IMG/VR virus record: IMGVR_UViG_3300043466_000781
Location: 1-28,225 of that record
DNA: 28,225 nt
From: a virus
Reading direction: 5' to 3' (one strand)
Within the stretch, counting starts at the first letter, position 1. The number at the start of each line of letters is the position of its first letter. Position numbers and translations under genes: made by a program. This document shows, piece by piece, positions 3,251 to 5,267 of the stretch. The notes under the pieces were generated by a model that worked only from the letters and a program-made list of their open reading frames with translations, did not search any database and was not told the DNA's origin.

Positions 3251-4648
3251 TTAAATAAATTTAGGTTTGATGATTGATTGATTAAATTGTTTTGTTTGAT
3301 TATTAAATTTTTTATTTACATTTTCTGTTAAACTTTTATGAAGTTCTATCGCTTTTTGTGTTTTCTGTTCTAATGCTTCTAATACTCTTGTTTGTCCATC
3401 TGAAATTACCATATCTATTATTACATTATTTTTTTGACCAAATCTCCAAAAACGTCTAATAGCCTGATAGTATTGTTCGTAACTCCAAGTAGGAAAAAAT
3501 ACTGAATGATTGCAATGCTGCCAATTTAATCCCATTGATGTCATTTTAGCTTTTGTAATAAGACGTTTTATTTCTCCGTTTGCAAATGCTAATAGTATTT
3601 CTTCTTTTTTATCAATACTTTGACTTCCTATAATTTCAACAGCCTGATGATCTGAATTTTTTAAAATAGTACTTTCATTATTTGTATTACACCAATAAAC
3701 AGAGGTTTTGTTATTAGCTAATTCTATTGCCTTCTCACATCTTTTTTCTTCTGTTTGTTTTTGTTCGTGTCTTACTTCTGTCATTGATTTAGCAATAGGA
3801 GTAAATAATTGTATTTGACCATTTTTATCAATTAAACTCTGATTAGCTACGATGTGTTTATTTAAAATTAAATCAGGCAAATTATATCTTTCGTTAGAGA
3901 ATCCTAAATCGCTCGGCATTTTAATCATTATTGCCCATTGATTTACCCACGCGAAAAAATCTTTTTCAGCGTGTGGTTTTAAATAAAACTTTTCTCCGAT
4001 ATTTCTATTATTTGAATCTACTGAATTTTGATTATTTTTAAAAAATTTACCTAACATATCCATATAACCCATATAACCTAATGCTTCTGAACTTGTACCT
4101 AATTCAATAAAATCATTAGGAGATGGTGTAGCTGTTGACAAAAATCTATATGGTATTTTTTTTATAAAAGATGTAATTTGATTTTTTATCTTACCATCAA
4201 AATTTTTTAAAATACTACTTTCATCACAAATAACTCCTACAAAATCATTCTCATTAAAATAGTGTAATCTCTCATAATTACAAATAACTATTTTTTTTGT
4301 ATGTGATCCATCTTTTGAGTATTCTATATCATCAATACCTAATTTTTCGGCTTCTATAATAAATTGAAAAGCAACAGCCAAAGGAGTTAGTATTAATACT
4401 TTTTTATTTGTATGTTGTATTATATTTTTTGCTATTGATAATTGAATTAATGTTTTACCTAATCCAGTATCAGCAAAAATTCCTATCCTACCTTTTTCAA
4501 TAGATTTTTTAATAATAAATTTTTGAAAATCAAAAGCTATATCAGGAATATAATTAGCTTTAAATCCAAAATTTCCTATTGAATGTTTTTTTTGTTCTAA
4601 AAATTCTAAATACTTTTTTGTATTTTCTAATAAATAATTTTGTGTCAT
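3251..4648 (-). CDS. SF2 (SNF2-like) DNA helicase
   Basis: A superfamily 2 helicase/translocase. From the ATG at 4648 it is 465 residues with Walker A (ADTGLGKT, 59-66), a motif II variant CDESS instead of DEAH, motif III-like STATPSPND, and motif VI QAIRRFWRFGQKN near the C-terminus, all typical of phage SNF2-like helicases. It may unwind or remodel DNA in replication or recombination. A longer reading from TTG at 4681 or ATG at 4669 is open, but those codons lie inside the strong hairpin at 4660-4690, so 4648 just after the U tract is preferred. The leader (4649-4751) carries the two-hairpin element, so expression is probably controlled there. Confidence 0.85.
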   Translation of the reverse strand: MTQNYLLENTKKYLEFLEQKKHSIGNFGFKANYIPDIAFDFQKFIIKKSIEKGRIGIFADTGLGKTLIQLSIAKNIIQHTNKKVLILTPLAVAFQFIIEAEKLGIDDIEYSKDGSHTKKIVICNYERLHYFNENDFVGVICDESSILKNFDGKIKNQITSFIKKIPYRFLSTATPSPNDFIELGTSSEALGYMGYMDMLGKFFKNNQNSVDSNNRNIGEKFYLKPHAEKDFFAWVNQWAIMIKMPSDLGFSNERYNLPDLILNKHIVANQSLIDKNGQIQLFTPIAKSMTEVRHEQKQTEEKRCEKAIELANNKTSVYWCNTNNESTILKNSDHQAVEIIGSQSIDKKEEILLAFANGEIKRLITKAKMTSMGLNWQHCNHSVFFPTWSYEQYYQAIRRFWRFGQKNNVIIDMVISDGQTRVLEALEQKTQKAIELHKSLTENVNKKFNNQTKQFNQSIIKPKFI

Positions 4649-4653
4649 AACAT

Positions 4654-4690
4654 AAAAAAGGGAACGCATTGGTAGTAGCAACGCATCCCC
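4654..4690 (-). terminator. Attenuator-type terminator before the helicase
   Basis: The arms GGGGAUGCGUU and AAUGCGUUCCC form an 11-bp stem with three G-U or U-G wobbles and a 9-nt loop, directly followed by UUUUUU (4659-4654). In the opposite strand the same three positions would be A-C mismatches, so the structure is specific to the transcribed strand. It stands between two genes of the same operon, so it should act as a regulated or leaky terminator rather than an operon end. Confidence 0.65.
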
Positions 4691-4741
4691 TTAGTGGTTT
4701 GAAATAAATTTCTTTTCGGCTACTACTTCGTAAAGAAATCT
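4654..4741 (-). promoter_or_regulatory. Two-hairpin kissing-loop leader of the helicase gene
   Basis: In the minus-strand transcript a first hairpin is formed by 4741-4732 pairing with 4715-4706 (10 bp including one G-U), with a 16-nt loop containing GUAGUAGC (4726-4719). A second hairpin (4690-4680 with 4670-4660) has the loop GCUACUACC (4679-4671). The two loops are perfectly complementary over 8 nt (4726-4719 with 4679-4672), so they can kiss. The second stem is followed by U6. The element occupies nearly all of the 103-base leader upstream of the helicase ATG. I infer an RNA control switch; the ligand or partner is unknown and I recognise no named riboswitch class. Confidence 0.6.
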
Positions 4742-4751
4742 TAAAACGAAT

Positions 4752-5267
4752 TTACAAATTATTTGATATACTTTGTAAATTTTTTTTGATGCATTTTGTA
4801 ACTAACTCAGAAAATGTTATATCGGTTTTTTTAGACTCAACCAACATATCGTAAAACAACTGCTCAGGTATATCTATCAGGATTTTTTTAAAGTTTTTAT
4901 TTTCTTTTACACGCTTTGAAATTTCGTGATTATAAAAATCTAAATGCCTGTATACTGATAAATGCAGATGCTCTAACTTATGCCTGATTTCATCATACAC
5001 ATCCAAATACTTTCTAAGTTCATCGCGTGCGTTAATTAATGTTGAATGATGTCTACCAAATAAATAACCAGTTCTTTCTAATGTTAATTGCAAAGTTTTG
5101 TTACTTAAAAGCAAATCATAAATCAACATCCTGCCTAATAAATATTCCTTTGTTCTGCCTTTCTTAATGATACTTGAAGGATTAAGATTAAGATAGAAAC
5201 ACGCAATGTGTATTATATCTGAGGGTGTGTAAACGCTTGTATCATCTTGCTCTAATGGATGCCTCAT
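4752..5267 (-). CDS. DnaA domain IV-like DNA-binding protein
   Basis: A 171-residue protein whose first 100 residues match the C-terminal DNA-binding domain of DnaA. Helices run from about 15, with the signature GRHHSTLINA at 71-80, equivalent to the GRDHSTVIHA element that contacts the DnaA box. The DnaA AAA+ ATPase part is absent. Residues about 128-165 (ILIDIPEQLFYDMLVESK) look like a ribbon-helix-helix or other small binding unit. It probably binds DnaA-box-like sites in host or phage DNA, either to recruit replication machinery or to regulate transcription. The ATG overlaps the upstream stop by 4 bases. It lies just upstream of the kissing-loop leader, so it is a candidate regulator of the downstream genes, though this is inference. 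Confidence 0.8.
   Translation of the reverse strand: MRHPLEQDDTSVYTPSDIIHIACFYLNLNPSSIIKKGRTKEYLLGRMLIYDLLLSNKTLQLTLERTGYLFGRHHSTLINARDELRKYLDVYDEIRHKLEHLHLSVYRHLDFYNHEISKRVKENKNFKKILIDIPEQLFYDMLVESKKTDITFSELVTKCIKKNLQSISNNL

Follow-up and report, generated by a model that had tools for sequence, protein, structure and literature searches.

What do two hairpins with complementary loops do at the head of a phage replication operon? The question is raised by the 28,225-nt stretch of viral DNA analysed here (positions 1 to 28,225 of IMG/VR record IMGVR_UViG_3300043466_000781; hereafter the window). The main genes of the window are all on the minus strand, so the leader in question is the reverse complement of positions 4654–4754. 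It lies between a gene for a DnaA-like protein and an operon in which a helicase gene is followed by genes for an N6/N4 methyltransferase and a Lin1244-like replication protein, a setting given in a preliminary description of the locus and upheld by Pfam and PHROGs. On the minus strand the order is a TAAATTCG box (4754–4747), a first hairpin, H1 (4741–4706), a 13-nt linker, a second hairpin, H2 (4692–4658), a U6 tract reaching to 4654, and the helicase start codon, an ATG at 4648 that is also favoured by relatives. The features are as follows.

4752–5267, minus strand: upstream gene, encoding a protein like the DnaA C-terminal helix-turn-helix (Bac_DnaA_C, E = 2.9e-7, slightly under the Pfam cut-off); its end overlaps the presumed promoter
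4747–4754, minus strand: −7-like box TAAATTCG (consensus TAnnTTTG), from the sequence, 5 nt 5′ of H1
4706–4741, minus strand: H1, the hairpin presumed to open the transcript at its 5′ end, from the minimum free energy fold and the scanner
4719–4726, minus strand: segment X of the H1 loop, GUAGUAGC, complementary without mismatch to 8 nt of the H2 loop
4693–4705, minus strand: 13-nt linker AUUUCAAACCACU, unstructured and unpaired in the fold (class median 15–16 nt)
4658–4692, minus strand: H2, predicted intrinsic terminator hairpin, from the RNA fold
4672–4679, minus strand: H2 loop segment X′, GCUACUAC, partner of X by complementarity and by covariation in the class
4654–4659, minus strand: U6 tract of the terminator, from the sequence
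3251–4648, minus strand: DNA helicase (SNF2/DEAD, Helicase_C), the controlled gene, from Pfam and PHROGs

The leader-strand RNA folds into exactly H1 and H2 (−26.9 kcal/mol, z = −4.4, equalled in 0 of 200 shuffles), and the plus-strand fold of the leader region gives no signal (z = −0.95). The H1 stem pairs AGAUUUCUUU (4732–4741) with AAAGAAAUUU (4706–4715) in 10 A/U-rich base pairs and encloses a 16-nt region. The fold and the exact complement of X and X′ bear out the two hairpins with loops complementary over 8 nt that had been described in the helicase leader, together with the three wobbles and the U6 tail (4659–4654) of the second. The H2 stem, AAGGGGAUGCGUU(G) with (C)AAUGCGUUCCCUU, is longer than the 11 bp first ascribed to it, with 14 bp predicted (13 bp and a G-C closing pair), three of them G·U. 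Because G4679 and C4671 can alternatively close the H2 loop, the kissing helix in the window comprises 7–8 bp. The fold energy of H2 is −18.6 kcal/mol on the leader strand and −8.5 kcal/mol on the other strand; H2 being so much stabler on the leader strand, its three G·U pairs point to RNA, the level at which selection had been proposed to act. By its predicted stable stem and the U tract before the start codon, the second hairpin has the attributes of an intrinsic terminator. When the 75 nt upstream of H2 were shuffled, an exact match of at least 8 nt to the H2 loop arose 2.5 times per 10,000, near the figure of about 3 in 10,000 reckoned beforehand, and such a match located within a stem-loop arose 1.5 times per 10,000.

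The TAAATTCG box lies where some 100 homologous elements have their −7 boxes (the start of the box precedes H1 by a median of 13 nt), and from its sequence we infer that the TAnnTTTG-type box is a promoter. A good −33 TTG is absent from the window leader, where the near-identical contig L001 has TTTGC. An in-frame TTG is found at 4681, inside H2, with AAGGGG five bases 5′ of it; if this codon were used as the helicase start, translation would initiate within the terminator. The window H2 is without the internal loops that define the two subtypes described below, and was missed by the covariance model of the second. The window loop pair is common only to L001, whose leader differs from that of the window at two positions, one of them a change from U·G to U-A that keeps the pair. 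Consequently, the case for the window locus rests on the class, and the covariation reported below comes from the class rather than from the window lineage.

The class is seen first in homologues of the helicase from viral contigs (80 loci, proteins 83–100% identical). Their leaders are mostly unrelated in sequence, and many have the same anatomy with other loop pairs, for example GCUUCGAC, CUGGAAC, GUACGAG, CCGCCAAG, GUAAGGC and CGGGCAGG, each complemented in the loop of the terminator that directly precedes the helicase gene. Some homologues are without the leader, their gene being placed within an operon or preceded by a different leader; among leaders of the kissing type, no homologous leader without the complementarity arose. 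In two helicase leaders (L002:3880-4000 and L011:3880-4000) the terminator loop and a 5′ segment are complementary (GGTGAAG/CTTCACC; AACCGCCAAG/CTTGGCGGTT), but the H1 stem is weak, so that the 5′ partner may act as an open strand.

About 100 instances of the element were found among related viral contigs and cultured phages of Flavobacterium and Cellulophaga. It consists of a TAnnTTTG-like box, H1 at the presumed 5′ end of the RNA, a linker of about 15 nt, a terminator with a complementary loop, and a start codon. A scan that did not require the promoter returned many chance matches in coding sequence (1078, against 748 in shuffled sequence), and because of this noise the count was restricted to those that combine a promoter, H1, a terminator and an ORF. 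Such complete elements, with the kiss included, numbered 148, where a shuffled replicate gave 8.5; a stricter energy threshold left 122, where shuffling gave 2. With later loci added there were 117 unique elements, of which 98 passed the spacing filters, a few of these sitting in coding sequence and probably due to chance. Spacing from promoter to H1, terminator and ATG is regular across the class: the medians are 13 nt from box to H1, 5 bp for the H1 stem, 8 nt for its loop, 15–16 nt for the linker, and 18 nt from the end of H2 to the start codon. The linkers show a recurrent AAANATTATT-like composition right before the CC of H2, possibly a mere reflection of A/T richness. Cultured carriers are the Flavobacterium phages hattifnatt, mumin and FCL-2 and the Cellulophaga phage phi10:1. 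A single phage has several elements, each with a different loop pair, as in hattifnatt, where three elements, with H1 starting at about 9372, 13312 and 14346 of NC_048832, lie 5′ of the helicase gene, an endonuclease gene and gp44. No complete promoter-bearing element was found in the phage MW202426, which has a distant helicase (L215, a G+C-rich locus). A long variant with an H2 of about 65 nt, a long apical arm and the box TAACTTAG is found 5′ of a replication-type gene in three contigs (L007:2837, L008:6400 and L021:6399), where the leaders are otherwise alike and there are three versions of the loop pair.

Two subtypes are distinguished by internal loops of H2, which allowed the class to be searched blind to the terminator loop. 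Subtype A is defined by a UGAA/GGAU internal loop. When its stem was sought in the viral contigs with any loop allowed, seven loci with five different loop versions were obtained, and all seven had, upstream, a complement of 7–9 nt to their own loop. The UGAA and GGAU sides are swapped in some loci (L135, L006:2680-2732). Subtype B contains an AGUA/GAA internal loop of the loop-E (S-turn) type, seen as an invariant GAGUAG...CGAAA internal loop at L231:5990-6030 and at about 30 other loci. The open-loop pattern for subtype B gave 31 distinct outer-stem matches, representing 19 different loop sequences; 29 of the 31 had, in their own upstream sequence, at least 6 nt complementary to the loop, compared with 11.4% when leaders were swapped, and the two exceptions are closely alike and lie in coding-like sequence. 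A covariance model from which the kissing pairs had been omitted retrieved further elements; of 29 matches checked, 28 have their own complement of 6 nt or more, the weakest of them, L254:435, being probably spurious, with a complement that arose by chance.

Covariation provides additional evidence, as the preliminary description had anticipated in proposing that compensatory changes be counted. In an alignment of 14 subtype B leaders all seven kissing pairs have changed on both sides, every cell remains paired (100%), and none of the changes is one-sided. The covariation score of the whole structure is 0.416 in this alignment, against 0.106 for shuffled and at most 0.065 for slid alignments, and the stems of H1 and H2 covary as well. 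Among 87 close leader pairs, picked by their flanks alone and not mutually independent, 125 kissing pairs are double-changed and still pairing, eight are changed on one side, and one is broken, a count biased downward since elements were chosen for having a match. In the same comparison the kissing bases differ at 20.7% of positions and the flanks at 8.5%. Near-identical flanks can enclose different keys: hattifnatt has GUGAGACG where mumin has GUGGAACG, each with its own matching partner. Within one phage the loops do not cross-match, self matches being 6–9 nt and cross matches at most 6 nt and mostly 3–4 nt; as a measure of avoidance of cross-pairing within genomes, the mean of 2.98 versus 3.13 is too weak for a claim. 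Loop pairs are private to each leader. On this sequence evidence the elements form two RNA hairpins, one a terminator by its sequence, whose loops are held complementary by selection.

The genes downstream of the elements are mostly of replication or recombination type. The largest cluster is that of replication initiation proteins (32), followed by the helicase (14) and a conserved 81-aa protein (12); other downstream genes encode ParB/methyltransferase fusions, NUMOD4/HNH endonucleases, a primase-polymerase, RecT-like proteins and RNase H. No evident structural gene was found downstream among the clusters examined, part of which are unannotated. Between the terminator and the ATG of the conserved gene of about 81 aa, a second conserved hairpin-like stretch, AATAGTTATCGGTAATCTTTAAACCGTTATATTATGGC, is found at L213:14443-14488, and a similar stretch directly follows the element in L067, L068, L140, L218, L223, L227, L250, L274 and L318. 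In the corresponding place, L186:1376-1408 matches Rfam DUF805b (RF02914).

This distribution narrows the original interpretation. What stands is a kissing-loop leader at the level of RNA, with a predicted intrinsic terminator ahead of a phage replication gene. The device is not peculiar to the helicase operon, since it also precedes replication-initiation, primase, RecT-like, methyltransferase and homing-endonuclease genes. Sensing of the DnaA-like protein, which had been offered as an example of autoregulation, loses its basis in the absence of a consistent linkage, the elements preceding many operons: two of the three elements of hattifnatt do not adjoin the DnaA-like gene, and four small genes intervene between that gene and the helicase element. 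The term riboswitch is likewise unsupported, as loop bases that are not conserved make a fixed ligand pocket there impossible.

In the cellular genomes searched, no complete element was encountered. The subtype B pattern gave 50 matches in 84,980 cellular genomes (257 Gb), none with the outer stem and the kiss together. The covariance model, run with strict filters and without a positive control, retrieved nothing from 299 genomes belonging to a single bacterial family, and the phage helicase is itself nearly absent from these genomes. The muminphages, the group of hattifnatt and snusmum that carries the element, are without lysogeny genes (PMC7077304). The element is so a phage device, at least partly of strictly lytic phages.

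No Rfam family matched at gathering or permissive thresholds, the only hits being sub-threshold (e.g. RsaA, 22 bits against a cut-off of 50), in keeping with the earlier remark that no phage riboswitch of such form was known. In the open-access literature we found no described phage kissing-loop terminator. The element is apparently a class of structured leader RNA undescribed in Rfam and in that literature. Among systems studied by experiment, its nearest precedent is the guanidine-IV riboswitch (mepA or GGAM-1 motif), in which likewise one hairpin follows another, the latter is an intrinsic terminator, and a kiss between their loops controls read-through at the start of a gene. There, the kissing loop between the 5′ hairpin and the terminator is reported to promote antitermination, and when the stem of the terminator grows longer, less linker is left and the kissing loop comes under strain (PMC7736828, PMC11611296). 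The bases of guanidine-IV are, however, highly conserved across phyla and bind guanidine, and the motif lies upstream of sugE/mepA transporter genes in cellular bacteria, whereas the loop bases of the phage element may vary provided that they match, its carriers are phages, and the guanidine exporters (sugE/mepA) are replaced by replication and recombination genes as its associates. Identity with guanidine-IV was rejected on the lack of an Rfam match, the 19 different subtype B loops and the lack of association with sugE/mepA.

The P4 CI RNA, the c4 RNA of P1 and P22 (RF01695) and IsrK of Gifsy-1 are also phage leaders with complementary segments in the same transcript, and control premature termination before replication or antirepressor genes. 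These RNAs confer immunity in temperate elements and act in trans once cleaved from the leader; in contrast, the present element has lytic carriers, occurs several times per genome and has its target in the apical loop of an intrinsic terminator, and no Rfam match to the c4 family was obtained. In the antisense RNAs of plasmid copy control (ColE1 RNAI/RNAII, pT181/pIP501), specificity is set by the kissing of variable, co-varying loops, and the attenuation in pT181 and pIP501 is a further likeness. The plasmid partners come from opposite strands of one locus, while those of the phage element come from the same strand and one transcript. The put antitermination RNAs of phage HK022 resemble the element in that a structured phage RNA near the transcript start affects downstream termination, but they act on RNA polymerase and on many terminators, without terminator-loop complementarity.

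That the element is a kissing-loop transcription attenuator is well supported, and the best explanation, which on complementarity and predicted structure we judge somewhat better than even, is an attenuator acting in cis. Host RNA polymerase would start at the TAnnTTTG-type promoter, H1 would be the first RNA structure to form, and about 80–90 nt further on the polymerase would meet the intrinsic terminator H2. The emerging H2 loop could then dock on the waiting H1 loop through 6–9 Watson-Crick pairs, as complementarity and covariation indicate, and the contest between kissing and full closure of the terminator stem would set how much transcription enters the replication operon. The balance might be shifted by a phage or host factor bound to H1 or to the conserved internal loops of H2, by transcription speed, or by an RNA in trans.

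As to the sign of the effect, we infer, by a slight preference, that kissing promotes read-through, by analogy with guanidine-IV: the short linker (median 15 nt) would tether H1 to the base of H2, so that a docked, stacked H1–H2 rod would strain closure of the terminator base. The slack of the linker against a collinear stacked-rod model has a median of 16 angstrom and is negative in 21% of elements. Such short linkers are compatible with a guanidine-IV-like competition and are not proof of it, as kissing complexes bend, and linker length shows no correlation with stem length (r = −0.10) of the kind expected under tight geometric tuning. The opposite sign, kissing in favour of termination, is nearly as likely, especially in subtype B, whose 3-bp inner (apical) helix looks weak alone, which could mean that kissing helps the terminator. 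The window H2 is predicted to fold strongly without kissing, and kissing may have little effect on termination there.

An RNA acting in trans, in the manner of P4 CI or P1 c4, is an unlikely alternative to the cis attenuator. Here a terminated leader, or H1 cut from it, would pair with the H2 loops of nascent leaders of the same specificity and terminate them, as a copy-number, timing or superinfection-exclusion switch for replication genes. A precedent exists in P4, where the CI RNA anneals to matching segments of the leader from which it derives and so, through termination, shuts off replication genes of the phage itself (PMC4825925). The faster divergence of the loops than of their flanks, almost only by double changes, is as would occur under divergence of specificity groups, and the leaders of one phage do not cross-match, although cross-matching within genomes is not clearly below the level between genomes. 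Set against this reading are the muminphage carriers without lysogeny genes, the lack of any complete element among the pattern matches in cellular genomes, the near absence of the phage helicase from the 299 genomes of one family, and a cis partner that is always near and should outcompete an RNA in trans. Cis and trans action are inseparable by sequence alone; we rank trans below cis on the grounds that the carriers known so far are lytic and that a leader always has its cis partner.

Equally unlikely, in our estimate, is a kissing-stabilised terminator or RNA clamp, in which docking improves termination at H2 or nuclease resistance and nothing is switched. A 5′ hairpin is a known stabiliser of mRNA, in most elements the linker has just the length needed to accommodate both structures, and the apical helix of subtype B has only 3 bp. 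Such a clamp leaves unexplained why a constitutive terminator should stand at the start of replication genes, and why the loop sequences turn over so fast and in pairs.

Still less probable is a switch responding to a ligand or protein, such as the DnaA-like protein or another factor, through the conserved internal loops. The invariant AGUA/GAA loop of subtype B and the UGAA/GGAU loop of subtype A are typical recognition motifs, and in some subtypes these conserved loops might yet bind something. They are absent from the window H2, however, the elements precede many unrelated operons rather than DnaA-like neighbours alone, and the bases of the loops that kiss vary from leader to leader. A chance match between two unrelated hairpins of an A/T-rich leader, to which we give almost no weight, gains something from a single-case probability that is small and not negligible over a search of the whole window for a pair picked after looking, and is refuted at the level of the class by the element scan, the loop-blind searches and the covariation, with the shuffle test also opposed to it.

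Tentatively, the elements could constitute a phage-specific class of regulatory RNA in which private, fast-changing matched keys avoid interference among leaders and gate the entry of polymerase into replication operons. Non-interference would then extend to rival phages in one cell, with action in cis and possibly in trans between co-infecting genomes. The occurrence of the element in cultured phages (muminphages, FCL-2 and phi10:1) makes it testable at once. Its loop pairs are natural RNA keys, matched within pairs and mutually non-matching, of 6–9 bp and coupled to a terminator, and are useful for studies of kissing-controlled termination and as parts for RNA circuits. That paired loops outpace their flanks raises the question of selection for orthogonality, and the element offers an entry to how phages of the Bacteroidota time their replication genes.
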